Program-made: the position numbers and the translations under genes
Notes under the pieces: model-generated
Told to the model about the DNA's origin: nothing
What the model saw: only the letters and a program-made list of their open reading frames with translations
Databases searched by the model: none
Shown here: piece by piece, positions 1,667 to 15,556 of the stretch
Layout of the letters: the number at the start of each line of letters is the position of its first letter
Numbering within the stretch: the first letter of the stretch is position 1
Assembly (NCBI RefSeq): GCF_001921215.1
Contig: NZ_MSIF01000001.1
Span: 744,001-808,000, forward strand
Origin: Actinophytocola xinjiangensis
GTDB lineage: Bacteria; Actinomycetota; Actinomycetes; Mycobacteriales; Pseudonocardiaceae
Reading direction: 5' to 3'
Length of the DNA: 64,000 nt

Positions 1667-2949
1667 TAGTCCCAGTCCTCGACGTAGCGGACCTTGTAGA
1701 ACTCCTCGGAGAAGTCGTCCATGTTCATGACGATCCGCCCGTCAGGGTAGGCCTCGCCACCCGCCTCCTTGACGCCGTTGATGATGGCGTCGTTGTTCGA
1801 GGCCCACGGGTTCATCATCTCGACGTACTGCACGCCGTCGCGCTCGTACATGTTGGTCACCATCAGCGCGTGGCCGCCGTCGATCCCGATCCGGCCGCGC
1901 ACGCTCGCGGTGACCGGCCGCCCGTCGTCGAGGGCCTCGCGCATCTCGTTGTACGAGTCGCCCGGCGACTTGTTGTCGCCGAAGAACAGGTCGGTGGAGG
2001 AGTCGGGGTCGAAGGCGCCGGTGTTGGCGCCGAACAGGTCCTCGTAGGCCTCGTTGGAGTCCCCGCCGTTGATCTCCTCGTAGTTGCCGCCCTCGTGCTC
2101 GGCGTAGGCCGTCTCGACGATCGCCACCCACTTGCCCTGGTCGGCGCCCTGGTCCAGCAGGCTGTCGTCGTTGACGGTGACGTCGCCGTCCTGGAAGTGC
2201 ACGGTGTAGGTGCCGTCACCGTTGTCGGTGATCAGGTCCTTGATCTTCTGCGGGTCGGTGAGGGCGGTCGACCCGAGTGCGGCCAGCAGCCAGCAGTCAC
2301 CGAAGTCACCCTGACGGATGTCGGTGATGTCCGGTTCCCCGTTGGGGTAGAGCGGGTCGCCCGAGCGGTCCTCGGTGTTGTGGTCGCCGGGCGGACCGGC
2401 GGGGTTCATGTCCTCTTCGGACAGACCGTCGAAGGCGCCGCTGATGGCGGCGGCGGCCCGGGCGTCCTCGGCGGTCATGCCCGCGAGGTTCTGCTTGATC
2501 GTCGCCTCGTACTGGCGGGCCTTCTCGTCCAACGCGTGCTGGGCCGACACGACCTGCTCGGCTTCGGCGTCGCCGGGGAGGTAGAGCATCGCCGACGGCG
2601 CGGTCACGCTCCCGTCCTCGGCGACGGTGAAGTCCTCGGACTCCGCCCGGAGGATGGCCGCGCGCGCGAGCGACTGGTAGCCCTCGATGCCGGCCGCCCC
2701 CGCGTCGGCGGCCTCGGCGGCGTCGGCGTGCGCGTCGGCGAGCTTGCGGACCTGCCCTTCGGTGCGGCCCATGGACTCGGTGGCCGCGTCGGCGGCGTTG
2801 CCGAGCCAGCTGCCCAGCAGGTCACCGAGCACACGGAGCGCGGTCTCGTTCCCGTCGCGCAGCAGCGTGCCGTTGGCGCGGAACTCCTCGGCCTGCGCCC
2901 GCAGCGCGCCGACGTCACCCCGCAGTGCCTGCGTCTTGCCGATGGCCAT
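1666..2949 (-). CDS. Calpain-family (C2) cysteine protease with WXG-type N-terminal domain
   Basis: This 427-residue protein combines two parts. Residues 1-190 are helical and Ala/Glu-rich with a SWLG turn at 47-50, like the WXG100/LXG targeting domains of type VII secretion substrates. Residues 205-427 carry the calpain (peptidase C2) core: GDFGDCW with Cys219, GGHALMV with His360 and NPW with Asn380, in the right order and spacing for the Cys-His-Asn triad. I chose the ATG at 2949 because the upstream extension in this frame is Arg-rich and overlaps the preceding gene, which ends 2 nt before this start. There is no Sec signal, so ESX export is plausible. It may be a secreted effector or toxin; its substrate is unknown. 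Confidence 0.85.
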   Translation of the reverse strand: MAIGKTQALRGDVGALRAQAEEFRANGTLLRDGNETALRVLGDLLGSWLGNAADAATESMGRTEGQVRKLADAHADAAEAADAGAAGIEGYQSLARAAILRAESEDFTVAEDGSVTAPSAMLYLPGDAEAEQVVSAQHALDEKARQYEATIKQNLAGMTAEDARAAAAISGAFDGLSEEDMNPAGPPGDHNTEDRSGDPLYPNGEPDITDIRQGDFGDCWLLAALGSTALTDPQKIKDLITDNGDGTYTVHFQDGDVTVNDDSLLDQGADQGKWVAIVETAYAEHEGGNYEEINGGDSNEAYEDLFGANTGAFDPDSSTDLFFGDNKSPGDSYNEMREALDDGRPVTASVRGRIGIDGGHALMVTNMYERDGVQYVEMMNPWASNNDAIINGVKEAGGEAYPDGRIVMNMDDFSEEFYKVRYVEDWD

Positions 2950-2951
2950 CG

Positions 2952-3251
2952 TCACACCACCGCGCCGCGGAGGAGGGACTCGCCGCTCTCGTCGGACCGC
3001 GTGTAGGCGGTGGCGCCGCTGGCCGCCGCGTCCGCCCACGCCTGCCACGACCTGGCGACCCCGGAGAACGCGGACTCGGAGGCGGTTCCGGCCGCCTCAC
3101 AGGCCCCGGCGACCGTGAACCCGGCCATCCCGGAGCCCACCCCGGCGGCGGCGCCGGTCCTGCGCCCCGACTCGATCTGCTGGCGGCACTCCTCGACCGA
3201 CCCGGCCGCGCCCCGCAACAGGGTCGGCACCACCTGAAATGCCTCCGGCAT
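2952..3251 (-). CDS. Small type VII secretion target (EspC/WXG100-like)
   Basis: This 99-residue helical, Ala/Ser-rich protein has a WQAWA segment (around residue 70) and no signal peptide, fitting the EspC/WXG100-type family annotated as type VII secretion targets. I start it at the ATG at 3251 (MPEAF); 13 further in-frame residues upstream look non-coding. It ends 2 nt before the calpain-like gene, so the two are probably co-translated. Known members form a heterodimer with a longer WXG partner and pass through the ESX channel, so the likely role is partner of the calpain protein's N-terminal domain. No ESX core genes (EccB-E, mycosin) are in the window. Confidence 0.7.
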   Translation of the reverse strand: MPEAFQVVPTLLRGAAGSVEECRQQIESGRRTGAAAGVGSGMAGFTVAGACEAAGTASESAFSGVARSWQAWADAAASGATAYTRSDESGESLLRGAVV

Positions 3252-3367
3252 CGCCCCTCCACGCCCCGCTTGACACGCCCGCTCGATCATCGACTCAAGA
3301 TCAGACCGAGGCTACGCGCCGTTGGTTCCCCGCAGAGTGAAAATGAGACGGGTTCTATCCTGACGGC

Positions 3368-3754
3368 GTGCCTGATGCCATCCACGCCAGCCTGGCCGAG
3401 CTCCAGGCGTCGTTCACCGAGACCCACACCGCGCAGTCCCGGGACGGCTCCGTCCGCGCCGAGGCGACCGCGCGACGCCAGACCGCGCTGTACCTGTCCC
3501 CAGGAGCGTTGAGACTGTCTCCGAGCGACCTGGCGGAGTTGATCCTGGAGACCCAGCGGGAAGCCCAGTCCGCGGCGGAGGCAGCCGTCTCGTCACGGCT
3601 GGACGGCTTCCGCGCCGACCCCCGGGTGTCAACGGCCCTCGACTCACTGCGGGACGCCCAGGCGCTCCCGACCCCACCGCCCACCCGCCGCCCGTCACGC
3701 GACGACGACGAGAACTACACCGTCTCGGTCTACAACAGCAACACCAGCTGGTGA
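3368..3754 (+). CDS. YbaB/EbfC-family DNA-binding-like protein
   Basis: This 128-residue protein resembles the YbaB/EbfC family: a helical N-terminus, a short central beta region (ALYLSPGALRLSPSDL) and a long Ala/Glu-rich helix, followed by a disordered Pro/Arg tail. Family members are dimeric nucleoid-associated proteins. In actinomycetes divergent YbaB-like genes are common beside ESX substrate genes, as here. A TATCCT hexamer at 3356-3361 sits 7 nt before the GTG, so a leaderless mRNA is possible; no Shine-Dalgarno sequence is visible. Family assignment is by resemblance and is moderately sure. Confidence 0.6.
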   Translation: MPDAIHASLAELQASFTETHTAQSRDGSVRAEATARRQTALYLSPGALRLSPSDLAELILETQREAQSAAEAAVSSRLDGFRADPRVSTALDSLRDAQALPTPPPTRRPSRDDDENYTVSVYNSNTSW

Positions 3755-3874
3755 ACCGCGCCGGGGCCGTGGACGGTCCGCCGGGCTCGCCTGTCCGGCG
3801 GTACTGACCGCGTCCCCTGAAGCACTACGCTGTTCGTGGCGTCGGGGGCGGCGGTCGAACACCCCGGAGTCGAC

Positions 3875-4186
3875 ATGAGCGGCGACAAGTGGGCGAAAAT
3901 CTTCCAGGACAACCAGAGCGTCGGCGGTGTCCTCGGCGCCGCGGTCGGAGCGGTCGCCGGCTTCGCCGGAACCGCCGCTGTACTTGGGTTGGCTGAACTC
4001 GGCCTCCCCGGCATCGCCGACAACGTGGCCGACCGCCTGAACCTACCCGTGGACCAGGCCACGGGCGAGGGCGTGCGAGTGGTGCTGGAAACGGCCGCCC
4101 TGGCCGGCGCGGGCGCCGGCGCGAAACTCGGACACGCCGCCGATCCCCACGTACGCCGCTTCCTCCGCCGCTTCGCCCCGAGGTGA
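3875..4186 (+). CDS. Small Gly/Ala-rich protein, possibly membrane-associated
   Basis: I do not recognise this 103-residue protein. I start it at the ATG at 3875 because GGAG lies 5 nt upstream; an in-frame ATG at 3836 has no such site. Residues 15-45 form a Gly/Ala/Val-rich hydrophobic stretch that could insert in a membrane, and residues 65-85 form a second, weaker Ala/Gly segment. The C-terminus is basic (RRFLRRFAPR). It ends 8 nt before the convergent XRE-type gene. It could be a small ESX-associated or envelope protein, but nothing in it says so directly. Confidence 0.5.
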   Translation: MSGDKWAKIFQDNQSVGGVLGAAVGAVAGFAGTAAVLGLAELGLPGIADNVADRLNLPVDQATGEGVRVVLETAALAGAGAGAKLGHAADPHVRRFLRRFAPR

Positions 4187-4194
4187 CAGGTTCG

Positions 4195-5127
4195 CTAGGG
4201 ATTCGTGGTCTTCAGGTCGACGAGGAAGCGCTGGCTCTCGCGGGAGTCGCACGGTTGTTGGACGGCTTCGGCGCCTTCGGCGGTGTCGTCCTTGCGGAGG
4301 CCGACGCACTGGTCGGTGTGTGCCCGGCGGAGTCGGTAGCCGGTGAGGGAGTCGGGGGCGAAGCGCTCGATCCGGAACAGTTGCGCGTCGTCGTCGGGGT
4401 CGCAGCGGGAGCGGGGTTCGAGCATGTCCTTGGCGGGGGGCTCCTCGCGGATCGTCAGGCAGCCCATCACCTTGTCCTTGGGGTGTTCCCACTTGATCTG
4501 GGTGAGGTCCTCGTCCACGGGTTCGAGGAGGGTGCGGGGACCGTCCGGCTTGGTGCACGGGAGTTGGACCATCACCACGTCCTCGTAGCGGAGGGAGCGG
4601 TCGAAGCCTTCCGTCAGGCACAGGTCCGGTGTCCGGGCGGGCCGGATCCGCACCCATTCCCCCGCCGAGGACAGGGGGAGCACGTCGGGGGGATCGGGCG
4701 TCGGGGGTCGGTCCGGTTCGGTGGTGATGGTGATGACGAGCAGAACTGCGGCGACGACCATCACCAGGGTGAGCAGGATCAGCAGTCGGGTGCGCGCCGG
4801 ACGTGTCGGCGGCGGGGGATCCGCGACCGTGTCGGCCGTTGTGTCGGTGGCTTCACGGACGAGGCGTTCGTAGGCGCGCATCCAGTCCGCCAGCCGGTTC
4901 TGTTCGCCACAGGCGCGGACGAACGCCGCGACGAGTTCCGGTCGCGGCAGCGTCTGTCTTCGGAGCAGATCCGCCGCGGTACTGCGGGCGAGGGCGTCGC
5001 CGCGAGCGGTCGCCTGGTCCTCCAACTGGCGCAGGGTCAACCCGGATCGTTCCTTGAGGGCACGCAACGCGGCCACGAATTCGACGGCATCGCGTGCGGC
5101 AGCGGGATCAACCCGTTCGTCCTCCAC
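4195..5127 (-). CDS. Membrane-anchored XRE-type regulator with ricin-like extracellular domain
   Basis: This 310-residue protein has three parts. Residues 15-95 are an XRE-type helix-turn-helix (LRALKERSGLTLRQLEDQA). Residues 112-136 are one transmembrane helix after an Arg-containing stop. The remaining 170 residues lie outside and hold two repeats with paired cysteines and a ricin/RICIN-like pattern (DLCLTEG, QLPC; QCVGLR, QQPC). Proteins with this cytoplasmic-HTH plus external-lectin layout are frequent in actinomycetes, where they are thought to sense cell-wall carbohydrate and signal to the DNA-binding domain; few are characterised. Start is GTG. The gene stands alone, convergent with its left neighbour. 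Confidence 0.75.
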   Translation of the reverse strand: MEDERVDPAAARDAVEFVAALRALKERSGLTLRQLEDQATARGDALARSTAADLLRRQTLPRPELVAAFVRACGEQNRLADWMRAYERLVREATDTTADTVADPPPPTRPARTRLLILLTLVMVVAAVLLVITITTEPDRPPTPDPPDVLPLSSAGEWVRIRPARTPDLCLTEGFDRSLRYEDVVMVQLPCTKPDGPRTLLEPVDEDLTQIKWEHPKDKVMGCLTIREEPPAKDMLEPRSRCDPDDDAQLFRIERFAPDSLTGYRLRRAHTDQCVGLRKDDTAEGAEAVQQPCDSRESQRFLVDLKTTNP

Positions 5128-5428
5128 CCTTCAGAGGTACCGCACCGTGTGCGCATGACGCAACGGAGGCTGTCCGGACGTTCGGACAGGGACCGTGTTT
5201 CCGTTGCCGGCCAGGCGAAACGCCCGGGCGGCTGTCCCGGACAGGCGAGGGGTGTTGCCTGAGTCACCCGGATGACGTGAACCTGTCACCGTGCCCGGTC
5301 CGGCGATCGCCGGCGGGCCAGCGGAACGCCAGTGCATCGCGGGGGTGCGGCTTTCCGCCACCGACGAGGCCGGGGACTCGGCGGCGTCATCCATCATCAG
5401 CAATCCCATACCAAGGGGGATATTTGTC

Positions 5429-5560
5429 GTGTCCACGTTGACGATCAGCGTGCTCGTCGTGCTGTTGTTCTCCACCACCACGGCCACGGCCGCGGTGGTG
5501 GAGGAGTCGGTCGGAACCTCCGTCGTGACGGACGACCACCCCTGCTGCAGAACTCCGTGA
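5429..5560 (+). CDS. Candidate small exported peptide with C-terminal Cys pair
   Basis: A 43-codon frame starts at GTG 5429, with AAGGGGG ending about 10 nt upstream. Third positions are almost all G or C. Residues 3-22 are hydrophobic and end in TATAA, as in a signal peptide; the remainder (VVEESVG..DDHPCCRTP) is acidic with a Cys-Cys pair near the end. A strong hairpin begins 9 nt after the stop, as expected for a transcription unit. It is convergent with the SARP gene of the peptide island and could be a second peptide substrate or a regulator. The complementary strand also reads open here, so coding is not certain. Confidence 0.35.
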   Translation: MSTLTISVLVVLLFSTTTATAAVVEESVGTSVVTDDHPCCRTP

Positions 5561-5568
5561 CACCGTGC

Positions 5569-5603
5569 GTGTGGCCGGCGCCGGCTGCCGGTTCCGGCCA
5601 CAC
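5569..5603. terminator. Bidirectional hairpin terminator
   Basis: Perfect 10-bp inverted repeat GTGTGGCCGG (5569-5578) / CCGGCCACAC (5594-5603) with a 15-nt GC-rich loop. It lies between the stop of the candidate small peptide (5560) and the stop of the SARP gene (5606), where two convergent transcripts would both need to end. There is no T-tract, which is common in high-GC actinomycetes. Confidence 0.6.
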
Positions 5604-5605
5604 GA

Positions 5606-8404
5606 TCACGTGGTGCTGACCGATTTCGAGTACTCGCTCAGCGCATCCGTTCTGGCCTGCGTGCCGTGCAGGCCGTCGCTGCTCACGACGGCCTGCTCGG
5701 CGCAGCGGCCCGCGTCCTCGGCGTTGCCCGCCAGGCGGTGCGCCCGCGCGAGGACCGTGAGTGCCCAGATCTCGCCGAACCGGTTGGCGCTGCGGCGGGC
5801 CTGGTCGAGCCCCTGGGTCATCAGCTCGATGGCCCGGTCGTACTGGCCGAGGTCGATGTGGATGCGGGCGAGCACCTCGCACACGTCGGTCTGCCGGTAG
5901 TGGTCGTCCATCCGCTCGTAGAGCGCCAGTCCCGTCTCGATCATGCTGATGGCCTCGGCTGACCGGCCGAGCTGGTGGTGTGCCTTGCCCAGGTTGACCA
6001 GCGCGAAGGCCTGACCGACGGCCGCTCCGATATCCCTGGCGATCTCCAGTTGCCGCTGGAGGAACTCGATCGCCTGGTCGGGACGCTGCCGCGCCAGGTG
6101 CGTGTAGCCGAGGTTGCCGAGCGCGCGTTGTTCGCCGAACCTGTCCCTGAGTTCCCGGCAGATCTCGAGTTCGGCCGAACCGTGGACGAGGGCCTGGTCG
6201 GGCTGGCCGACGTGCAGGTTGGTCACCGCCAGGTTGCCGTGCGCCACGGCCAGCGAACCGCGGTCACCCAGGCGTTCGGCCGCCGCGACGACCTCCTGCT
6301 GGAACCCGACGAGGGCCGACAGGTCGTTGGCGCCCGAGTGCAGGTACCAGTGCAGGCCCAACGCGAGGTCCACACCGAGGCGCAGGTGTTCGGCGGGACC
6401 GAGCCACGCCTGCCGGACGACCTCGATCAGGTCGCGCCGGTGTTCGTCCAGCCAGCGCGACGCTTCCTCCGTCCCACCCAGCGGACTGAACCGGACACCG
6501 TCGCCGGTCGCGGGATGGTGCGCCCGATGCGGGTACACCAGCGCGTTCGCCCGCGCCACCGTGGCCAGCAGGTAACCCAGAACCCGGGTCAGGACCTGGG
6601 ATCGCTCCGGCGCGGATACCGTGTCGAGACCACACTCGTTGGCGAAGAGCCTGATCAGGTCGTGCATCAGGAACCGGCCCGGCACGTGTTCCTCGACCAG
6701 GTGGGCGTCCAGCAGGCGTTCGACGGTCCGGTCGGCCTCGGCCGGCGACGTGTCGAGCATCGCGGCTGCCAGGGTCAGGTCGATCTCGGTGACGGGCACC
6801 AGACCGAACAAGCACAGGGCCTTGGCCGCGGTCCGGTCGGTGGGGTCGTCGCTGTCGCGCAGCGCGGCATGGCTGACCGCGAGGCTGCTGCGCAGGGCAG
6901 TGTCGCCCGAGGCAAGTTCGGCGAGCCGGTGCCGGGCGTCGGCGAGCCGTTCGACCAGGTCACTCACCGCCCAGCTGGGCCGGGCGTTGAGCCGGGCCGC
7001 GGCGACGTGCAGTCCCAGTGGCAGGTTCCCGCACAGTTCGGCCAGCCGCCGGACCGCTTTGGGGTCGGCGGCCGGCCGCACGTCCGGGACCAGCGCGTCG
7101 AGCATCATGCTGGCCTCCTCGGCGGCGAGCGAGCCGACCCGCAGATGGGTGACACCCTCCACCGTCGCCAGCCTGGTCCGGCTGGTGACCAGCACCGCGC
7201 ACCCCGCCAGCAGCGGCCGGACCTGGGCGGGGGTGGCGGCGTTGTCCAGCACGATCAGCAGCCGCCGCCCGGCCACCATCGTGCGCAGCAGTCCGGCGGC
7301 CTTGTCGACGTCCGCCGGCAGGTCCGACCCCACGGCCCCCAGCCCGCGCAGCAGCTGGTGCAGCGCCTCCACCGGGGACAACGGCGTCACGCCGGGGGTG
7401 GCGCCACGGAGGTTGACGTGCAGGTGACCGTCGGCGAACCGGGAAGCCGCCAGGTGCGCCGCCCGGGTGGCCAACGCCGACTTGCCCACGCCGGGAGCGC
7501 CGTGCAGCACCACGACCGGCCCGGCGGTGGTGGCCTCGCCGTGGAGCATCCCGTTCAGCACGTCGAGTTCGTCGTCCCGGCCGATCAGCGTCGGCAGGTC
7601 ACGCGGTAGCTGCCGGGGAACGTGGACCACCCTGGCCGGCGCGGTCCTCGACGGGCTCAGTGACGGGTCGGCGGCGACGATCCGCTGGTGCAGCCGCTGG
7701 AGATCGGCTCCCGGGTCGAGCCCCAACTCCCCGATCAGGCGGGTGCGCAGGTCCTGGTAGTGCTCGAGCGCGTCGGCCTGGCGACCGCTCAGGTACAGCG
7801 ACAGCATGAGCTGGCCGCCGAGCCGCTCGTCCAGCGGGTGTTCGGCAGCGCGCGCGGTCAGCTCGACGACCAGGTCGCCGTGGTTTCCCCGGCGCAACAA
7901 CAGGTCTGCGCGGTCCAGCTCCACCGCGAGGCGGTGCTGGTGCAGGGTGGTCCGCACGTCGTCGAGCCACGGAGAGCGCAGGCCGGCGAACGCCTCGCCC
8001 CGCCACAGCCCGAGCGCCTCCCGCATGAACCGCAGGGCGCGGTCCTCGTCGTCGGTGGCCCGCGCCTGTTCGACCAGGTGGTGGAACCGGTACAGGTCGA
8101 CGGCCATCGGGTCGACCGGGATGGCGTAGCCGCCACGTCGCCGCACGATGCCGGCCCCGCCGGCCGAGACGAGGGCCCGCCGCAGCCGGGACAGGTAGCT
8201 GTGCAGCGTGGCCCGGCCGCGAACAGGGAGATCATCGCCCCACACCCGGTCCATCAGCTGGTCAGCGGAGACCGGCTTGTCGGCCTCGATCAGCAGAACC
8301 ACCAGAACGCTCTGCTGCCGGGCATGCCCGACATCGACGAGTTGTCCGTCGACGCGTGCTTCGGGAACACCGAGCAGGCGGTAACCCTCGGCGATGGACG
8401 ACAC
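5606..8404 (-). CDS. SARP-family regulator with NB-ARC and TPR domains (AfsR-like)
   Basis: This 932-residue protein has the AfsR layout: OmpR-type winged helix (about 1-95), bacterial transcriptional activator domain (about 97-245), an NTPase with P-loop GAPGVGKSA near residue 300 and a Walker B-like LLIVLDN, then TPR repeats to the end. Such proteins activate biosynthetic operons by binding direct repeats at the promoter, with the NTPase/TPR part gating activity. The frame extends upstream to 8560, but I start at GTG 8404 because the extension is not domain-like, a good promoter (8438-8466) lies inside it, and it would overlap the peptide gene. It is divergent from the Cys-rich peptide gene, so its likely target is the shared intergenic region. 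Confidence 0.9.
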   Translation of the reverse strand: MSSIAEGYRLLGVPEARVDGQLVDVGHARQQSVLVVLLIEADKPVSADQLMDRVWGDDLPVRGRATLHSYLSRLRRALVSAGGAGIVRRRGGYAIPVDPMAVDLYRFHHLVEQARATDDEDRALRFMREALGLWRGEAFAGLRSPWLDDVRTTLHQHRLAVELDRADLLLRRGNHGDLVVELTARAAEHPLDERLGGQLMLSLYLSGRQADALEHYQDLRTRLIGELGLDPGADLQRLHQRIVAADPSLSPSRTAPARVVHVPRQLPRDLPTLIGRDDELDVLNGMLHGEATTAGPVVVLHGAPGVGKSALATRAAHLAASRFADGHLHVNLRGATPGVTPLSPVEALHQLLRGLGAVGSDLPADVDKAAGLLRTMVAGRRLLIVLDNAATPAQVRPLLAGCAVLVTSRTRLATVEGVTHLRVGSLAAEEASMMLDALVPDVRPAADPKAVRRLAELCGNLPLGLHVAAARLNARPSWAVSDLVERLADARHRLAELASGDTALRSSLAVSHAALRDSDDPTDRTAAKALCLFGLVPVTEIDLTLAAAMLDTSPAEADRTVERLLDAHLVEEHVPGRFLMHDLIRLFANECGLDTVSAPERSQVLTRVLGYLLATVARANALVYPHRAHHPATGDGVRFSPLGGTEEASRWLDEHRRDLIEVVRQAWLGPAEHLRLGVDLALGLHWYLHSGANDLSALVGFQQEVVAAAERLGDRGSLAVAHGNLAVTNLHVGQPDQALVHGSAELEICRELRDRFGEQRALGNLGYTHLARQRPDQAIEFLQRQLEIARDIGAAVGQAFALVNLGKAHHQLGRSAEAISMIETGLALYERMDDHYRQTDVCEVLARIHIDLGQYDRAIELMTQGLDQARRSANRFGEIWALTVLARAHRLAGNAEDAGRCAEQAVVSSDGLHGTQARTDALSEYSKSVSTT

Positions 8405-8437
8405 CTCCCGGACCCGAGCCCGTAACCGACACCTAAC

Positions 8438-8466
8438 GAAATACAGGCTCTGGCCAGCGGATTCAA
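8438..8466 (-). promoter_or_regulatory. Sigma-70-like promoter of the SARP gene
   Basis: On the minus strand TTGAAT (8466-8461) and TATTTC (8443-8438) are separated by exactly 17 nt. Transcription would begin near 8431, about 27 nt before the GTG at 8404. Overlapping the -35 box is a small palindrome CAAGACTTG (8464-8472), and CAAGA recurs 12 nt on (8476-8480); these are possible regulator contacts in the 145-nt divergent region. I found no convincing -35/-10 pair for the opposite direction, as is usual for activator-dependent promoters. Confidence 0.45.
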
Positions 8467-8549
8467 GACTTGTCGCAAGATCCGCACAGCCCCGGCCGGA
8501 CATCGTCTGAAGCGAGATTCCAGCACCACACCAGAGATGGGAGAGAAAC

Positions 8550-8717
8550 GTGTACCGCAAGATCGAATCGATGGGCGCGAGGCTGCTCGGCCTGTTCGTG
8601 CCCAGCGTGGATGCCTCGGCGGCCTGTCAGTACTACTGCTGGAGCGCCTGCTACCAGTGCCCGAACTACGCGCCGTGCTGCCGGCTGACCAGCTGCTCGC
8701 TGTCCTGCCAGATCTGA
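8550..8717 (+). CDS. Precursor of an eight-cysteine secreted peptide
   Basis: A 55-codon gene begins at GTG 8550, with GGGAGAG 5-6 nt upstream, and ends at TGA 8715-8717. The N-terminal half is a short leader with three charged residues and a modest hydrophobic stretch (ARLLGLFVPSV), ending in the signal-peptidase-like motif ASA-A at residues 22-25. The core (26-55) holds eight cysteines at 26, 30, 34, 37, 43, 44, 49 and 53, one Trp and several Tyr. Cysteines are absent from the leader. The even count, absence of a lanthipeptide, radical-SAM or YcaO enzyme nearby, and downstream thiol-redox genes suggest four disulfides. It resembles no precursor family I can name. Cleavage site and bridging are inferred. 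Confidence 0.8.
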   Translation: MYRKIESMGARLLGLFVPSVDASAACQYYCWSACYQCPNYAPCCRLTSCSLSCQI

Positions 8718-8827
8718 CCGGTCCTCGACGCGTCATCCGGACCGATCGCTGCCGCTGGTGGACCCCCGCGATAACCACCACCGTCGTGACAGTGAGGCCC
8801 GGTTGAGGATCAGGGGTTGATCGTGGA

Positions 8828-8867
8828 ACGCCTTCCGCGACGACGGAACGGTTGTCGCGGAAGGCGT
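8828..8867 (+). terminator. Hairpin between peptide gene and export operon
   Basis: Perfect 14-bp inverted repeat ACGCCTTCCGCGAC (8828-8841) / GTCGCGGAAGGCGT (8854-8867) with a 12-nt loop and no T-tract. It sits 110 nt after the peptide stop and 28 nt before the MauE-like start. The likely role is partial termination or mRNA 3'-end stabilisation, giving more precursor than export-machinery transcript, as in many peptide operons. Confidence 0.65.
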
Positions 8868-8894
8868 CTCCGGCGCTTCGGAAGGGTGTTTCCC

Positions 8895-9431
8895 ATGCAG
8901 TACTGGACGATCGGTGTCCACAGCGCGGTCGGCGTGATCTTCCTGGTCTCGTCGGTGAGCAAGGTGCGCAACCGGGCCGCGTTCGACTCCTTCGTCGACT
9001 CGGTGCGGACCATGCGCCTGCTCGGCCCGGCGTGGTCGCTGCCGGTCGCGGTCGCGGTGGTCGCCACGGAGTTCCTGATCTGGGTGCTGCTCGCGATCCC
9101 GGCCCGTCTCGTTTCCGCCGCCGGTCTCGTGCTGGCGGCCGGGTTGCTGCTGGTGCTGGCGGGTGCGATCGCCGTAGCGGTCCGGCGCGGGGTTCGTGCT
9201 CCGTGTCGGTGCTTCGGAGGTTCGGTGTCCCCGCTCGGACCGTGGCAGGCCGTGCGCAACGTCGTGCTCGCCTCGGCCGCGCTCGGCGCGGCCATGACCG
9301 GTCTCACCCCCGGCCCGACCCAGCCGGCCGGGGTGGCCGTCGCGGTCGTCGCCGGCGTGGTTCTCGGCTACCTGGTGGCCGTGTCCGACGACCTGATCGA
9401 ACTGTTCGCCGGTGTCGACGCACCGGCCTGA
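8895..9431 (+). CDS. MauE/DoxX-family membrane redox protein
   Basis: This 178-residue protein has four predicted membrane helices (about 5-22, 48-70, 72-95, 120-165) and a conserved-looking Cys pair in APCRCFGG (Cys104, Cys106) at a membrane boundary, typical of MauE-like proteins. In methylotrophs MauE works with the thioredoxin-like MauD to form the disulfides of the methylamine dehydrogenase small subunit. No methylamine dehydrogenase genes are here; the obvious client is the eight-Cys peptide upstream. I use the ATG at 8895 (AAGGG 8 nt upstream) instead of an Arg-rich in-frame extension that would run through the hairpin. It is followed after 19 nt by the TlpA-like gene. Confidence 0.85.
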   Translation: MQYWTIGVHSAVGVIFLVSSVSKVRNRAAFDSFVDSVRTMRLLGPAWSLPVAVAVVATEFLIWVLLAIPARLVSAAGLVLAAGLLLVLAGAIAVAVRRGVRAPCRCFGGSVSPLGPWQAVRNVVLASAALGAAMTGLTPGPTQPAGVAVAVVAGVVLGYLVAVSDDLIELFAGVDAPA

Positions 9432-9450
9432 CAAGTCAACTGGAGGAACG

Positions 9451-9993
9451 GTGTCCATCCTGATCTCGGCCGTGGTGCTGGTGGGTCTGCTCGCCGCGCT
9501 GAACCTGGTGCTGAACGTGGGGGTGGTCAGGCGCCTGCGTGAGCACACCGAACTGCTCGCCAGGGCGTCCAACCCCCGCACCGCCATCGGCGCCGGCGAG
9601 TCCGTCGGCCCGTTCGAGACGACCATGACGGATTCGCGGACCCTGGCCATGGACGACCTGGTCGGCGAGAACCTGATCGCCTTCTTCTCCACCACCTGTG
9701 AGCCGTGCGAGGAGAAGCTGCCCAAGTTCATCGACCTGGCGAAGGTCTGGCGCGGTGGCCGCGACCAGGTCGTCGCGGTGGTGGTCGGTGACCCGGCCGA
9801 CGCGACGTGGCGGGTCGCGGACCTGGAGGCGGTCGCCCGGGTGGTGGTCGAGGAGACCGACGGCGCGGTGAGTACCGCGTTCGGCGTGCGGGGCTACCCG
9901 ACGGTCCTGGTGACCGGGCCAGGGCCGGAGGGGCAGCTGGTGGTGACCGAGGACCGTGTCCAGCTCGAGGCCCGCGTCCCAGTGCGGGCATGA
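9451..9993 (+). CDS. TlpA/MauD-like membrane-anchored thiol oxidoreductase
   Basis: This 180-residue protein has one N-terminal membrane helix (residues 2-23) and an external thioredoxin-fold domain with active site TTCEPC (Cys83, Cys86) and a cis-Pro region near GVRGYPTVLV. Start is GTG 9451, with GGAGG at 9442-9446. It is likely the thiol-disulfide exchange partner of the MauE-like protein: MauE would relay electrons through the membrane while this domain oxidises or shuffles cysteines of the exported peptide. Its stop overlaps the exporter start (ATGA), so the two are translationally coupled. Confidence 0.88.
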   Translation: MSILISAVVLVGLLAALNLVLNVGVVRRLREHTELLARASNPRTAIGAGESVGPFETTMTDSRTLAMDDLVGENLIAFFSTTCEPCEEKLPKFIDLAKVWRGGRDQVVAVVVGDPADATWRVADLEAVARVVVEETDGAVSTAFGVRGYPTVLVTGPGPEGQLVVTEDRVQLEARVPVRA

Positions 9994-11963
9994 CCGGGTC
10001 CGCCGGGGCCGGGGGAGGGGCCACGGTGCGGCAGGTGCTCGCGGTGTGTTCGCTGGCGGCCGGTGCGGCACCGGGCATCCTGCTGGTCTACTCGGTGCTG
10101 ATGGTGGCCAGCGGCGCGCTGCCGGTGGTGATCGCCTGGCTGACCAAGCTGGTGCTGGACCAGCTCGCCGGGGAGCCGGTGTCCGGCACGCTGGTCGTGG
10201 TGGGGGTCGGGCTGGCGCTGGCCGGGCTGGTGGGGGGCGTCGCGCCGCACGCGCACCGCTACCTCGGCGCCGAGCTGGACCGGCGGGTGGAGGTACGGGC
10301 CCAGGACCGACTGTTCGGCGCGGTGGAGCGGTTCGTCGGCCTGGGTCGCTTCGAGGATCCCGTGTTCCTCGACCGGCTCCGGCTGGCCCAGCAGTCGGTG
10401 CACAATCTCGCCGACCAGGCCGTCGGCGGGGTGCGGGGCGTGGTCACCTCGGCGATCACGATCGCCGGGTTCGTCGGGTCGCTGTTCGTGCTCAGCCCGA
10501 CCCTGATGGTCGTGGTGTTGGGCACGGGGATGCTGACGCTGGCGGCCGAGATCGCGTTGTCCCGCCGGCGGGCCCGCATGCTCTGGCGGATCGGGCCCGT
10601 CGAACGTCGGGAGTTCTTCTACGCCCAGCTTCTGTCCACTGTGGAGGCCGCGAAGGAGGTCCGGTTGTTCGGCACGGGCGGCTTCCTGCGCCGGCGGATG
10701 ATGGGGGAGCGGTTGACCGCCAACGCGGCCCGGCGCGCGACCGACCGTCGCGAGGTCGCGGTCCAGTCTGTCCTGGCCGTGCTGGCGGCGACCGTCGCCG
10801 GCGGCGGGCTGCTGTGGGCGATCGGTGACGCGCAGCGCGGCGGGCTCTCGGTCGGGGACGTCACGGTGTTCGTCGCGGCGGTGGCTGGGGTGCAGGCGGC
10901 CCTGGCGTCGCTGACCAACGAGGTCGCCCGAACCCACCAGGCACTGCTGATGTTCGATCACTACCTCGCGGTCACCCGGGCCGCGCCCGACCTTCCGCTG
11001 GCGGCGCGTCCTCGCCCGCTGCCCCCGCTGCGGCACGCGATCGAGCTGCGGGACGTGTGGTTCCGGTACTCCGAGGAGCATCCGTGGATCCTGCGGGGGG
11101 TCACGCTGCGGATCCCGCACGGCCAGGCGCTGGCGCTGGTCGGGCTGAACGGGGCCGGCAAGTCCACGCTGGCGAAGTTGTTGTGCCGGTTCTACGACCC
11201 CACCCGCGGCGTGATCCTGTGGGACGGCGTGGACATCAGACAGGTGGACGTGACCGAACTGCGGCAGCGGGTCGGCGCCGTGTTCCAGGACTACATGGCC
11301 TACGACCTGACCGCCGGGGAGAACATCGCCCTGGGCGACCTGGACGCCCTCGGCGATCCGGGCCGGATCAGCACGGCCGCGCGCCGGGCCGGCGTCCACG
11401 ACCGGATCACCGAACTCCCCCGGGGCTACGACACCCTGCTGTCCAGGACGTTCTTCAGCGAGTCCGACAAGGACGACCCGGAGACCGGCGCCATGCTCTC
11501 CGGCGGCCAGTGGCAGCGACTGGCCCTGGCCAGGGCCTTCCTGCGCGACCGGCACGAACTGCTGATCCTCGACGAGCCGTCCTCTGGCCTGGATCCCCAG
11601 GCGGAGGCCGAGATCCACCGCTCGCTCCGCCGGTTCCGCAGTGGACAGACAAGTCTGCTGATCTCCCACCGCCTTGGCGCCGTCCGGACCGCCGACCTGA
11701 TCGTCGTCCTGGACGACGGGCAGGTGGCCGAACGTGGAACCCACCTGGCACTGATGACCCGGGGTGGCCTGTATGCCCAACTTTTCCGCCTACAGGCGGC
11801 CGGCTATCAGGAGTCGGCACCAACAGGAGGCGACGATGTCGACACTGGTCCCCGGCCTGACCGGGTTGGCACTACTGCTGGCGGTTCTCGTCCTTCTGGC
11901 CCGAACGGTGGTCAGGGTGACGGTGCGCGGCATGAGCATGGAACCGGCCTACCGGGAAGGTGA
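9990..11963 (+). CDS. ABC exporter (fused membrane and ATPase domains), no C39 peptidase
   Basis: This 657-residue half-transporter has six membrane helices (about residues 10-320) and one ATPase domain: Walker A GLNGAGKST (about 384), signature LSGGQWQRL (about 503) and Walker B LLILDEP (about 523). The SGGQWQR form is frequent in exporters of peptide natural products. There is no N-terminal C39 peptidase, so leader removal needs a separate enzyme, supplied by the next gene. The start is the ATG at 9990 overlapping the TlpA stop. Oddly, the frame continues 43 codons past the normal ATPase end, overlapping the signal peptidase gene by 128 nt, with a Gly/Arg/Pro-rich low-complexity tail. Confidence 0.9.
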   Translation: MTGSAGAGGGATVRQVLAVCSLAAGAAPGILLVYSVLMVASGALPVVIAWLTKLVLDQLAGEPVSGTLVVVGVGLALAGLVGGVAPHAHRYLGAELDRRVEVRAQDRLFGAVERFVGLGRFEDPVFLDRLRLAQQSVHNLADQAVGGVRGVVTSAITIAGFVGSLFVLSPTLMVVVLGTGMLTLAAEIALSRRRARMLWRIGPVERREFFYAQLLSTVEAAKEVRLFGTGGFLRRRMMGERLTANAARRATDRREVAVQSVLAVLAATVAGGGLLWAIGDAQRGGLSVGDVTVFVAAVAGVQAALASLTNEVARTHQALLMFDHYLAVTRAAPDLPLAARPRPLPPLRHAIELRDVWFRYSEEHPWILRGVTLRIPHGQALALVGLNGAGKSTLAKLLCRFYDPTRGVILWDGVDIRQVDVTELRQRVGAVFQDYMAYDLTAGENIALGDLDALGDPGRISTAARRAGVHDRITELPRGYDTLLSRTFFSESDKDDPETGAMLSGGQWQRLALARAFLRDRHELLILDEPSSGLDPQAEAEIHRSLRRFRSGQTSLLISHRLGAVRTADLIVVLDDGQVAERGTHLALMTRGGLYAQLFRLQAAGYQESAPTGGDDVDTGPRPDRVGTTAGGSRPSGPNGGQGDGARHEHGTGLPGR

Positions 11964-12312
11964 CCAGGTCCTGGTGCGCCGGGGCAGAACCCTGGAACAG
12001 GGTCAGGTCGTTGTCCTGGAACAGCCGAGCGGCACCGGCTGGCGCCTGCCCCCGCTGCGCCAGGGCGCCGGCGCCGCGGCGATCGCCACCCGCTCGTGGC
12101 TGATCAAACGCGTGATCGCCGTCGCCGGCGACCCGGTCCCTCGCGACCAGGTCCCCCTGCTGGCGACGTTCCCCGAAACCCGTGTCCCTCCGGGCAAGAT
12201 CGTCCTGCTCGGCGACAACCAGGCCGTGAGCCTTGACTCCCGACGCCTGGGCTACTTCCCGACCGACCGCGTCCTGGGGGTCGTCGCCCGCGACCTCCCG
12301 CGCCGGGGGTGA
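11836..12312 (+). CDS. S26-family (type I) signal peptidase, pathway-specific
   Basis: This 158-residue protein is a short signal peptidase with one N-terminal membrane helix (6-22). The catalytic Ser34 lies in GMSMEP, the general base Lys91 in LIKRVIAV, and the family box GDNQAVSLDSR is near residue 126. The start is ATG 11836, preceded by AGGAGG. It is shorter than a housekeeping LepB and lies in a peptide-export operon, so its probable substrate is the peptide leader at the AxA motif before the Cys-rich core. It is the last gene of the operon and convergent with the AraC gene 7 nt away. Confidence 0.9.
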   Translation: MSTLVPGLTGLALLLAVLVLLARTVVRVTVRGMSMEPAYREGDQVLVRRGRTLEQGQVVVLEQPSGTGWRLPPLRQGAGAAAIATRSWLIKRVIAVAGDPVPRDQVPLLATFPETRVPPGKIVLLGDNQAVSLDSRRLGYFPTDRVLGVVARDLPRRG

Positions 12313-12319
12313 CCGCGCG

Positions 12320-13234
12320 TCACCAGATCTGTTGGCGGTAGCGCAGGGGGGAGAGGCCGACCTGGCGTTTGAACGCGGTGCTGAACGCGCTTTCCGAGGT
12401 GTAGCCGAGGTTCGCGGCGAGGGCGCCGACGCGGATGTCGGTGTCGCGCAGGGCCCGTTGGGCGAGCAGCATCCGCCAGCGGCTGAGGTAGGTCAGGGGT
12501 GGGACGTCGGCCACGGTGCGGAAGCGTTCGGCGAAGGACGTGCGGGACATCGCGGCGGCGGTGGCCAGGTCGTCGAGGTTCCAGGGCCTTCCTGGGTCGG
12601 CGTGCATGAGCCGGATCGCGGGGCGCAGGCGCTCGTCGGTCAGCACTCGTAGCCAGCCTGGGGGGAGGTCGGCCTGGTCGACGTGGGCGCGCACCATTTC
12701 CAGCACCAGGAGCTGTACGTGCTGGCGGATCGCGAAGTCCGCGCCGATTCGCCGGTGGCGTACCTCGTCGAACACCCGGTGGATGGTGCCGCGCAGGGTG
12801 AACGCGGCGGTGGCCGATCCTCGGATGTGCGCGACCGGGGGAAGTGCCGCGGACAGCAGTGCCCGGCCGGCGGGGTTGAGGTCGACCCGCCCGCCGACGA
12901 CGATGTCGTCGGTGTCGAGGTCGACGCCGGTGAGGTCGGTCGACGGCGGGTTCTCGTCGGGCCGGAGTTCACGGGGTGGACCGTCGCCGGTGCCGCCTTC
13001 CAGGCGCAGCCACGACCGGTCGTTCAGCACGGCGACGTCGCCCGGTTCGAGGTCGATCGGCGAGGCGGCGGCGTCGGTGGTCAGGCGCGCGTGGCCGCTG
13101 ACCATCGCGAAGAACTTGAGCGGGGTGCCGAGTGCGCCGTGCGTCACCCACGGGTCGCGTGCCGCGAACCCGCCGGAGAGCACGCCCCGGACCTCGACGA
13201 GGTCGAACACCTCGGAGAGCTGATCTCCGTCCAC
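12320..13234 (-). CDS. AraC-family transcriptional regulator
   Basis: This 304-residue protein has an N-terminal cupin-like sensor domain (AraC-binding-like/cupin_6 type; LEPGDVAVL) and a C-terminal double helix-turn-helix (residues 200-300, ending with LGYTSESAFSTAFKRQVG and LSPLRYR, the AraC signature). Start is GTG. It is divergent from an SDR gene with a 73-nt gap, the usual layout for a regulator and the single enzyme it controls. It is not obviously tied to the peptide island to its left. Confidence 0.9.
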   Translation of the reverse strand: MDGDQLSEVFDLVEVRGVLSGGFAARDPWVTHGALGTPLKFFAMVSGHARLTTDAAASPIDLEPGDVAVLNDRSWLRLEGGTGDGPPRELRPDENPPSTDLTGVDLDTDDIVVGGRVDLNPAGRALLSAALPPVAHIRGSATAAFTLRGTIHRVFDEVRHRRIGADFAIRQHVQLLVLEMVRAHVDQADLPPGWLRVLTDERLRPAIRLMHADPGRPWNLDDLATAAAMSRTSFAERFRTVADVPPLTYLSRWRMLLAQRALRDTDIRVGALAANLGYTSESAFSTAFKRQVGLSPLRYRQQIW

Positions 13235-13307
13235 GCTCGTACTATCGCGAAGAAAAACCGGATGGACAAGTATTCATCGTCCCCCGGTCGGGGTCCAGGC
13301 TGGAGTC

Positions 13308-14318
13308 ATGACACTGGGTATCACGCACAGTCAGCACCCGCTCGGCTCCGGGTTCACCGCCGCCTCGACGGCCGAGGACGTGCTGGCCGGCATCGACCTC
13401 ACCGGGAGGAACGTGATCGTCACCGGTGGCCACTCCGGCCTCGGACTGGTGGCCACCCGGGCGCTGGCCGAGGCCGGCGCCTCGGTCACGGTCGCCTCGC
13501 GGGACACCGACCGCGCCGCGCGGGCGGTCGCCGGGATCGCGCGCGTCGAGGTCGGCCGGCTGGACCTGCTCGATCCCGCCTCGATCGACGCGTTCGTCGA
13601 CGGCTACCTCGGGTCCGGTCGCCCGCTGCACATCCTGGTCAACAACGCCGGGTTCACCCCCTCCGGCAGCGGGCTCACGCACGACGCGCGCGGCTACGAA
13701 ACGCAGTTCGCCGTCAACCACCTCGGTCACTTCCAGCTGACGCTCGGGCTGTACCCGGCGCTGCGGGCGGCGGGCGGCGCCCGGGTCGTCACCACCACCT
13801 CGGGCGCCCAGCGCATGTCCGACATCCTGTGGGACGACCCGCACTTCACCACCGGCCGGCACGACCCCGGCCTCGCCTACCCGCAGTCCAAGACCGCCAA
13901 CGTGCTGTTCACCGTCGAGCTGGACCGCCGGTGGGCCGCCGACGGGATTCGTGCCTACGCACCACATCCGGGGATCGTGCCAGCCACGGCCTTCAACCGG
14001 GCGGTCGGTGAACGGGCACAGCGGGACATGGGCCTCATCGACCAGGCCGGTGAGCCGATCATCGACCCCGTCCGGGGACAGAAGACCCCCGAACAGGGCG
14101 CGGCGACGATTGTGTTCGCGGCCGCCAGCCCGCTGCTCGCCGGCCTCGGTGGCGTCTACCTCAACAACAGCGACATCTCGCCCCTGGACGAGGACCCGAG
14201 GGCCATCGACCTCACCGAACCCGGCCCCGACGGGATCCCGGTCGACGTCGTGCCGCACTCCGTCGACCCCGACTCCGCGCGGCGCCTGTGGGAGCTCAGC
14301 GAGGAGCTGATCCGGTAG
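13308..14318 (+). CDS. Short-chain dehydrogenase/reductase
   Basis: This 336-residue SDR has the NAD(P) motif TGGHSGLG (about residues 40-47), NNAG near 115 and the catalytic YPQSK near residue 190. The length and LNNS/DISPLDED C-terminus resemble protochlorophyllide-reductase-like/retinol-dehydrogenase-like SDRs that are widespread in actinomycetes and usually of unknown substrate. It is divergent from and probably controlled by the AraC regulator. A Ser-rich N-terminal extension of about 25 residues precedes the Rossmann fold. Confidence 0.88.
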   Translation: MTLGITHSQHPLGSGFTAASTAEDVLAGIDLTGRNVIVTGGHSGLGLVATRALAEAGASVTVASRDTDRAARAVAGIARVEVGRLDLLDPASIDAFVDGYLGSGRPLHILVNNAGFTPSGSGLTHDARGYETQFAVNHLGHFQLTLGLYPALRAAGGARVVTTTSGAQRMSDILWDDPHFTTGRHDPGLAYPQSKTANVLFTVELDRRWAADGIRAYAPHPGIVPATAFNRAVGERAQRDMGLIDQAGEPIIDPVRGQKTPEQGAATIVFAAASPLLAGLGGVYLNNSDISPLDEDPRAIDLTEPGPDGIPVDVVPHSVDPDSARRLWELSEELIR

Positions 14319-14324
14319 GGAGTC

Positions 14325-14873
14325 TCACGACGAGTCGGGTGCCAGCGACCAGACCTCCGCGGTGGTGAGGAACGCCGAGGACGACGGTCGCTCGGCGCCG
14401 CCCTCCCGGCGCACCGCGCCGGCCACCGGTGTCCCGCCGATCGTGACCGACGCGTCCGCCGCCGGGGCCAGGACCAGGCGCAGCGCGTGCGGTACGCCGT
14501 CGAGCGGGAACGCGTCGGTCTCGAACGTGCGGACGGCCAACGCGCCGGAGACGGTCACCGCCACGTCACCGGCGCGGGCCGACAGCCCGTCGCGGAGGTC
14601 GAGGTCGACCGTGACCTCGGCCCGCTCCGGGGTCGGCTCCGGCCACGGCAGTCCGGCGGCCTCGGGGAAGTGCCGGACGAACGCGCGCTCCAGCCAGCCG
14701 CCGAGGGTCGGGTCGTCGGCGAGGACCCGCACCCGGCCGTCGTGCCACAGCACGATCGCCCTGCCGGGGCCGTGCACCGACCAGTCGACCGTCCACACCG
14801 AGGCGAACGCGGTCACGTCGTCGCCGTCGAACAGCCGGACGGCGGGGTTGGCGCCGCACAGCAGCACGGTCAC
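14325..14873 (-). CDS. Hypothetical protein, last gene of the carbamoyltransferase operon
   Basis: I do not recognise this 182-residue protein. It has no signal peptide or membrane helix, many beta-type segments and two motifs common in bacterial hypothetical proteins (VLWHDGRVRVLADDP and WLERAFVRHFPE). Its GTG start overlaps the stop of the membrane protein upstream (GTGA), making it the seventh gene of a coupled operon. A tailoring or binding role in that pathway is possible but unsupported by motifs. Confidence 0.65.
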   Translation of the reverse strand: MTVLLCGANPAVRLFDGDDVTAFASVWTVDWSVHGPGRAIVLWHDGRVRVLADDPTLGGWLERAFVRHFPEAAGLPWPEPTPERAEVTVDLDLRDGLSARAGDVAVTVSGALAVRTFETDAFPLDGVPHALRLVLAPAADASVTIGGTPVAGAVRREGGAERPSSSAFLTTAEVWSLAPDSS

Positions 14874-15556
14874 CGCGCCGGCCTCGTGACACGCTCGTCC
14901 ACCCAGCGCTCCACCGGCGCCACCAGCACGGCGACCGCGAGAGCCAGGTGCACGGCCAGGAACACCACGGCCGTCACCACCCCCGGCGGCCCGCCGACGA
15001 ACACGACGATGTGCGAGGCCCAGTCGAGGGTTTCGGGACGCCCGTCCGGCCAGGCGTACAGCAGCCAGAAACCCAGGTCGTTCAGCCCGGACACGACCAG
15101 CAGCACCGACGCGACACCGACCTTGAGCACCGTCGCGGTGCGCGCGCCGCCGAGCCGGAACGCGATCAGCCCGAACAGCACCAGATAGCTGACGACGAAC
15201 AGCTGGAACTGGTAGACGGTCTGGAACCCGCCCGCCTCACCGACCTCGCGTGCGGTGCCGTAGTCGAGGACCCGCAGGATCAGCGCGGTGTCCACGTAAC
15301 CCATGTAGGCCAGCACCCCGAGGACCACCAGCACCGGACCGAACCGGCCACGCGGGAACGTCGCGACCGCGAGCGTCGCGAACACCAGCGGACTGATCTT
15401 GAACGCCCACTCGCCGAGGTCGTCGAGGGTCTGGTCCGGCGGCAGGGCGACCATGATGAGACCGGCGAGCACCGCGGCCGGAACCGCGAAGGCGAGCCAC
15501 AGCCAGGACCGGGCTCGGTACAGGGTGGCCACCGGCCCGGCGACGTGGGTGGTCAC
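14870..15556 (-). CDS. Multi-pass membrane protein of unknown function
   Basis: This 228-residue protein has about six hydrophobic helices with short loops and an Arg-rich C-terminal end. The GTG at 15556 overlaps the stop of the carbamoyltransferase gene (GTGA), which fixes the start; the longer in-frame extension is a shadow of that enzyme. I recognise no family motif. In this operon it could help transport or present the product made by the carbamoyltransferase, glycosyltransferase and epimerase. Confidence 0.7.
   Translation of the reverse strand: MTTHVAGPVATLYRARSWLWLAFAVPAAVLAGLIMVALPPDQTLDDLGEWAFKISPLVFATLAVATFPRGRFGPVLVVLGVLAYMGYVDTALILRVLDYGTAREVGEAGGFQTVYQFQLFVVSYLVLFGLIAFRLGGARTATVLKVGVASVLLVVSGLNDLGFWLLYAWPDGRPETLDWASHIVVFVGGPPGVVTAVVFLAVHLALAVAVLVAPVERWVDERVTRPAR

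Follow-up and report, generated by a model that had tools for sequence, protein, structure and literature searches.

The DNA analysed here, termed the window, is a stretch of 64,000 nucleotides from Actinophytocola xinjiangensis (contig NZ_MSIF01000001.1, positions 744,001 to 808,000 of the forward strand). An earlier note on it had described a SARP gene divergent from a 55-codon gene encoding eight cysteines, followed by genes for MauE, TlpA, ATP-binding cassette (ABC) and S26 signal peptidase proteins, and had read the group as a factory for a secreted peptide. The frames, strands and coordinates given there were right, and domain searches confirmed the genes and their order, which are as follows.

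5606..8407, minus strand: SARP/AfsR-like regulator gene (BTAD, NB-ARC, TPR), divergent from the peptide gene; the start is taken to be the GTG at 8407, and an alternative upstream TTG at 8560 is possible.
8550..8717, plus strand: precursor peptide gene of 55 codons, with a 24-residue leader ending in AxA and a 31-residue core with eight cysteines.
8550..8621, plus strand: leader part; the family pattern is roughly M, (R/K), L(G/A)DRLL, (F/V)VP, A.A.
8622..8714, plus strand: core part, with the cysteine pattern C-C-C-C-CC-C-C.
8895..9431, plus strand: MauE-family membrane protein, with five long helices in the model and CxC at residues 104 and 106.
9451..9993, plus strand: TlpA-like thioredoxin-fold protein, with an N-terminal membrane helix and a CEPC motif.
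9990..11963, plus strand: ABC exporter, with membrane and ATPase domains in one protein and without a C39 peptidase domain.
11836..12312, plus strand: S26 signal-peptidase-like protein, with the serine motif GMSMEP and the lysine motif LIKRVIAVAG.

The BTAD domain of the minus-strand regulator was matched at 8e-37, MauE belongs to PF07291 (1.5e-22), the TlpA-like protein to PF00578 (1.4e-6), and the S26 peptidase to PF10502 (2.9e-21) and TIGR02227 (6.7e-21). As the earlier note had it, there is no C39 protease: Pfam lists nine families for the ABC protein, and this domain is not one of them. The ATG of the S26 gene at 11836 lies behind AGGAGG, with a 128-base overlap with the ABC gene (11836-11963). 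The peptide frame begins with a GTG that has GGAGAG just upstream, its GC content by codon position is 0.47/0.56/0.95, and all eight cysteines sit after the AxA motif; the computed mass of the core is 3530.38 when reduced and 3522.32 with four disulfides. No match for the 55-residue peptide was obtained in Pfam or NCBIfam, and a sequence search of the PDB gave no convincing relative (best E-value 0.38). A structure model of the peptide was of low use (mean predicted local distance difference test score (pLDDT) 68.9, five models ranging from 48.8 to 68.9; predicted TM-score 0.36); its core blocks stand at 81-83 and it has a leader helix at 3-16.

Relatives of MauE were sought in 100 genomes, with matches in 17, and relatives of the peptide in 298 genomes of the order, with matches in 11; both counts include the source genome, and the second includes two weak matches. 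The latter (L053 and L054, E-values 0.0066 and 0.0086) had no cassette and were dropped. The first set comprised thirty loci, 21 of which answer to the MauE search, the three weaker of its 24 places outside the source genome having been left out. In most of the thirty the four genes sit together, and next to them are short frames that share the leader and end in a cysteine-rich stretch. With a 26-row precursor profile, core included, matches then came from 21 of 394 genomes in the class, from 2 genomes in a phylum sample of 296 and from 20 of 150 genomes in the family, the source genome being counted in each. Up to eight precursor matches occur in one genome, and some species have several loci. 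The 43 other places returned by the class search had MauE in 40 cases, TlpA in 42, the ABC protein in 41 and S26 in 42; all four genes were present in 38 and at least three in 42, with L141 lacking S26 and L169 having S26 only. Gene order is shuffled among loci while the gene set is kept together.

The association was also approached from the exporter, using the best 80 of at least 587 relatives by ABC alignment, some of them truncated where the contig stops and a few duplicating earlier loci (L229 is L060 and L239 is L065). TlpA was found in 74 of these, S26 in 74 and MauE in 59. For the precursors a leader model was built from 18 frames picked for cysteine-richness and not for cysteine parity; the version used in the key tests ends at AxA and is thus free of cysteine. 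This model detected 62 frames in 59 of the 80 loci, 43 of them full cassettes, and 61 of the 62 frames lay within 500 bases of a cassette gene. A second-round leader model then picked up a frame in 10 of the 15 full cassettes still without one, six at E < 0.05 and four (L190, L215, L228 and L245, E-values 0.28 to 3.8) accepted by eye. Over both rounds a leader with a variable cysteine-rich core was present in 69 of the 80 loci (four by eye), and 53 of the 58 full cassettes carry a precursor frame (43 plus 10). Three others stop short at the edge of a contig or locus: L187 starts at MauE, and L243 and L249 end at S26, with a precursor just beyond L243 in the same genome (L167). The earlier note had named, as evidence that would tell against it, related loci that keep the four genes without a cysteine-rich frame; the proposal survives this test because most full cassettes carry the frame.

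The leader is the recognizable part of these peptides. Its consensus has L(G/A)DRLL near the middle, in which the Asp-Arg pair is common (D 66%, R 81%), and proline in 94%; alanine (92%) or valine stands at -3 and alanine at -1. The AxA leader end claimed for the window peptide is borne out by 91 non-redundant leaders, 86 of which have alanine at -1 and 86 alanine or valine at -3. Over 400 sampled pairs of the 91 peptides, leaders averaged an identity of 0.42, cores 0.30 and cores without cysteine 0.27. Among six close relatives the ratio of non-synonymous to synonymous substitution (dN/dS) was 0.06 for the leader versus 0.40 for the core. Cysteines were identical in 150 of 150 comparisons within this group, versus 399 of 555 for the other core residues, and in 100 of 100 comparisons within a second group of five relatives. 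Two or three precursors occur in 11 of 118 loci, and 26 diverse precursor relatives gave single weak matches only in NCBIfam, Pfam and PHROGs. A conserved leader and a variable core are thus found together in a short gene beside dedicated export and processing genes, as in ribosomally synthesized and post-translationally modified peptides (RiPPs). A side branch of precursors (L073:6083-6609 and L074:5931-6430) shows a similar core element (e.g. NNCNGQC) in two copies per locus, and both loci have a second TlpA gene.

The number of cysteines in the core is nearly always even. In the window and 153 loci, searched with the cysteine-free leader model at E-values up to 0.05, 131 frames were found in 118 loci, and 129 of them have an even core cysteine number. 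After removal of cores at least 60% identical, 4 cores have four cysteines, 39 have six, 2 have seven, 35 have eight, 10 have ten and 1 has twelve, so that the number is even in 89 of 91; the corresponding p=1.7e-24 under equal odds is too small because the cores are related. Stricter redundancy limits left even numbers in 74 of 76, 64 of 65 and 41 of 42 cores, and the non-redundant cores from outside the window and the thirty seed-source loci were even in 70 of 70. Among the 80 exporter-first loci, 61 of 62 frames have an even number of four or more, the exception being L235. Eleven other residues showed no comparable split, the most uneven being lysine (57 of 91 even; serine 52, threonine 48). 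Other cysteine-rich frames of the same loci have no gap at odd numbers (906 with four cysteines, 367 with five, 170 with six, 55 with seven, 30 with eight, 1 with nine and 2 with ten). The family holds 19 cysteine patterns. Even counts imply that the cysteines work in pairs and, since the partner proteins are thiol redox proteins, disulfides are the simplest meaning of the pairing. This supports the cysteine pairing proposed for the window peptide, and from parity in sequence we strongly infer that the core cysteines would be joined as disulfides.

The machinery is conserved where it would have to be. Among 146 loci, 80 of which were chosen by the ABC protein, the frequent protein clusters are ABC (at least 134), MauE (at least 87), TlpA (at least 75), S26 (at least 73) and two SARP types (at least 54 and at least 11), all lower bounds because of a simple frame caller; the next cluster after these, in 12 of 146 loci, looks like a response regulator. 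MauE keeps its CxC in 87 of 88 cases and TlpA its CxxC in 77 of 78, and the serine and lysine columns of S26 stand at 1.0 among aligned rows. A structure model of MauE (pLDDT 92.9) has five long helices and a shorter one, with the CxC in the loop between helices 71-97 and 116-135; a sequence search of the PDB found nothing near it. MauD is the thioredoxin-fold partner of MauE. Seven other PF07291 matches exist in the window genome, and the five examined have no TlpA, ABC, S26 or leader peptide nearby; none of these lies near L264, L265 and L266, three MauE-family genes of this genome. L055 and L070 carry MauE alone without a precursor. L056 has MauE, TlpA and S26 with a weak four-cysteine candidate (E-value 1.1) and no ABC match, and its neighbours are similar to those of L055; this pair looks like stepwise loss of the cassette. 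The window ABC protein has 657 residues and most relatives align only to about residue 610, because of which its C-terminal end looks like an extension.

We propose that the unit in the window is, very probably, a member of a family of actinomycete ribosomal peptides in which a SARP-switched precursor receives disulfides from TlpA and MauE, loses its leader to S26 and is exported by the ABC protein; the peptide factory of the earlier note is supported to this extent. The regulator, judging from its position, would switch on the short precursor gene, and the conserved leader, modelled as a helix, may be recognized by the dedicated membrane machinery. The parity suggests strongly that the core cysteines would be joined pairwise, giving four disulfides in the window peptide. 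Conservation of the motifs is consistent with the TlpA CxxC protein being a thiol oxidant or isomerase and with the MauE CxC passing electrons on. The S26 protease would take off the leader after AxA, and the ABC protein, itself lacking a peptidase domain, would export the peptide. Oxidation and cleavage may take place either outside or at the inner face of the membrane. As to the use of the product, chemical antagonism among soil bacteria is the most likely one by analogy, because the core varies as in toxins or bacteriocins, and we hold this with moderate confidence.

Several observations weigh against this proposal. MauE was below threshold in 21 of the 80 exporter-first loci, and 15 of these keep TlpA and the ABC protein, although L198 is on a short contig and L200 and L207 have MauE traces. 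The four-part set of the earlier note stands in 58 of the 80 loci, and its MauE part is not always present. Two full cassettes, L212 and L250, had no precursor by either round of the leader model. The only odd peptides in the parity count are two neighbours, L051:5977-6147 and 6181-6363, with seven cysteines each, in a locus whose MauE frame is broken in the assembly; either a link joins the two chains, the locus is in decay, or there is an assembly error. The L235 frame, with a recognizable leader and three core cysteines, looks degenerate; its E-value (0.08) is above the limit and places it outside the parity count, as are about three other weak frames, with six cysteines each. In the second group of five close relatives the core was not freer than the leader (dN/dS 0.17 versus 0.22). 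No immunity gene was recognized, and parity would also fit paired metal ligands.

One explanation for the arrangement of the membrane proteins is that the order of events is the reverse of that in the earlier note, with TlpA, the MauE CxC loop and S26 facing the cytoplasm, the peptide being oxidized and cut at the inner face and the ABC protein exporting it folded. By hydropathy and charge count, it is the active-site side that carries the lysine and arginine in 71 of 76 TlpA proteins (mean 3.36 versus 0.43), 82 of 87 MauE proteins (13.2 versus 3.1) and 59 of 62 S26 proteins (2.95 versus 0.60), after 2 of 78, 1 of 88 and 12 of 74 respectively had been left out for want of a usable helix or motif. 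In two housekeeping signal peptidases of the window genome the bias is reversed, with 3 such residues ahead of the helix and 1 and 2 behind it. A further match of the S26 protein, below the cut-off of the model, is to the nickel superoxide dismutase maturation protease, TIGR02754 (5.3e-10), and that protease acts inside the cell. However, the positive-inside rule is statistical and the hydropathy method crude, S26 signal peptidases normally work outside, so that the same bias in S26 may mean that the rule misleads here, and disulfides are unusual in the bacterial cytoplasm. The TlpA-type controls were also poor: three were readable (L275, L277 and L278), of which two are lipoprotein-like and one (L278) is without bias. 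As the charge patterns put the redox motifs and the S26 domain inside, folding might precede export. We regard this order as a serious contender, if a less probable one than its converse, and the fuller proposal, an inward-facing MauE/TlpA disulfide machine with oxidation and the S26 cut at the cytoplasmic face and an ABC protein that exports the finished folded peptide, is a shade more tentative still. The sequence of export, cleavage and oxidation set out in the earlier note is unproven, and the charge patterns point the other way. The small subunit of methylamine dehydrogenase is thought to be exported already folded, and an inward-facing logic, if true, could explain MauE and MauD in that system too.

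Another possibility is that the leader is a Sec signal peptide with S26 as its dedicated signal peptidase, and that the ABC protein has another cargo or confers immunity. The AxA end and the S26 partner would suit this, but unbroken runs without Asp, Glu, Lys, Arg, Asn, Gln, His and Pro reach at most six residues in 84 of 91 leaders and never exceed nine, the Asp-Arg pair is common in mid-leader, and the ABC protein accompanies the precursor in 41 of 43 precursor-found loci; we consider it unlikely. It is more doubtful again that the cysteines bind metal and that the peptide is a secreted metallothionein or a chelator of the zinc-ribbon kind. Even numbers suit metal ligands too, and 1 of 26 precursors gave a weak zinc-ribbon match (E-value about 0.001). 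Against this, six-cysteine cores (39) are as common as eight-cysteine ones (35) and ten-cysteine cores (10) also occur, histidine makes up only 1.7% of core residues, and the partner proteins are thiol redox proteins.

Least probable, and barely more than conceivable, is that enzymes from other parts of the genome tie the cysteines into thioethers or other RiPP links: unclustered RiPP enzymes do exist, a 2022 paper having reportedly described unclustered lanthipeptide proteases, but no modifying enzyme is frequent in the 146 loci, and parity of cysteine alone, with none in serine or threonine, is not expected of links from cysteine to those residues. The absence of lanthipeptide, YcaO and radical-SAM enzymes remarked on in the earlier note holds for the 16 window proteins scanned with Pfam (1669 to 18543, a subset of the frames), among which there is no RiPP-type modification enzyme, and none was seen by eye among the 25 largest clusters listed for the 146 loci.

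The earlier note had called the system apparently undescribed, which is not supported. Three mauE-containing families of RiPP candidates from Streptomyces, with precursors of at least eight cysteines and one also with mauD, have been listed with decRiPPter (Kloosterman et al., 2020; PMC7794033). According to the portion of that paper considered here, no other mau genes accompany them, and the decRiPPter filter requires a transporter, a regulator and a peptidase, which the cassette shares. These candidates are in silico and from one genus, and that portion of the text gives no product, shared leader, cysteine parity or S26/TlpA logic. The window peptide, with eight cysteines and a MauE gene, falls within the decRiPPter mauE criterion, yet 39 of its 91 relatives have six cysteines and 4 have four. 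Streptomyces viridosporus NRRL 2414 (L227), a relative of a decRiPPter strain, carries the cassette with a precursor of six core cysteines. As far as that part of the paper goes, the decRiPPter candidates are likely to be the same family as the cassette. To it the present analysis adds the leader family, the complete gene set including TlpA and S26, cysteine parity, the spread over families and plasmids, MauE-less loci and the question of sidedness.

Conotoxin-type families combine a constant leader, a hypervariable core, conserved cysteines and several cysteine frameworks; conotoxins are animal venom peptides, and the likeness is one of logic only, with no homology claimed. Actifensin and the defensin-like bacteriocins (PMC6989792) are, in the text available, small secreted actinobacterial peptides. 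They have three disulfides and variable homologues, some operons hold several copies, and ABC genes lie nearby. They differ in a G-X-E/GA leader end, an operon with a subtilisin-like protease and a LuxR regulator, and one conserved six-cysteine pattern versus the 19 patterns of the cassette family; the window core, with eight cysteines, falls outside the six-cysteine defensin framework. A term search of that text found no thioredoxin, signal peptidase or MauE. A screen for bacterial defensins (PMC11561630) likewise dealt with short cysteine-rich secreted bacterial peptides; the part of it considered here indicates that it would probably pass over cassette peptides because it required a fixed cysteine pattern and a predicted Sec-type signal peptide. 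Methylamine dehydrogenase offers a MauE-family membrane protein serving a disulfide-containing substrate, a role for MauE called speculative in the passages of PMC7794033 considered; the substrate of the cassette differs in being a short peptide beside an ABC exporter. The small subunit of that enzyme (PF02975) had no match in 149 genomes including the window genome, control genomes being silent too.

In the open-access literature, with subscription papers and preprints outside the search, no characterized product was found, and among the papers listed only PMC7794033 was found to treat MauE with cysteine-rich peptides. Secreted disulfide-rich ribosomal peptides are known, and for this route to them the literature examined offers only guesses so far. 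If the proposal is true, the conotoxin-like disulfide peptides of actinomycetes are a large and little-mined resource, and their synthesis does without the modification enzymes that usually mark RiPP clusters. They can be sought directly with the cysteine-free leader model. The cassette also offers a compact setting in which to study the function of MauE proteins and the membrane side on which they act.

The cassette occurs on plasmids of Streptomyces atratus, where a BTAD regulator gene is divergent from it, S. sp. NBC_00053, S. nigrescens and the industrial organism S. clavuligerus, whose pSCL4 has two clear cases. For the peptides of the pSCL4 locus L255, cleaved behind AxA and carrying three disulfides, the computed masses are 4913.22 and 4797.03, each 6.05 below the reduced form. 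In three of the four plasmid records MauE is annotated as MauE/DoxX and the precursors as hypothetical proteins. The plasmid search, made with the ABC protein at an E-value of 1e-90, returned 29 records, the best at 2e-163. Actinomycete families are intermixed in a tree of 56 exporters; there the window exporter groups with Streptomycetaceae, Micromonosporaceae, Nocardiaceae and Thermomonosporaceae in a set of 14 rows supported at 99/94, and not with Actinophytocola algeriensis. This mixing, and the separation from the congener, suggests horizontal transfer. On plasmids of S. atratus (L253) and S. sp. NBC_00376 (L284) cassettes lie beside an integrase gene or between insertion sequence transposase genes.

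Elsewhere in the window, at 15556-18543, a frame of 996 codons encodes a carbamoyltransferase whose first 396 residues are without a Pfam match. On the other side of the unit, at 1669-5127, Pfam identified a protein with WXG100-like and calpain-type protease matches, a small EspC-like protein (weak), a YbaB-like protein and a protein with helix-turn-helix and ricin-lectin matches; these genes are perhaps a separate type VII secretion island.

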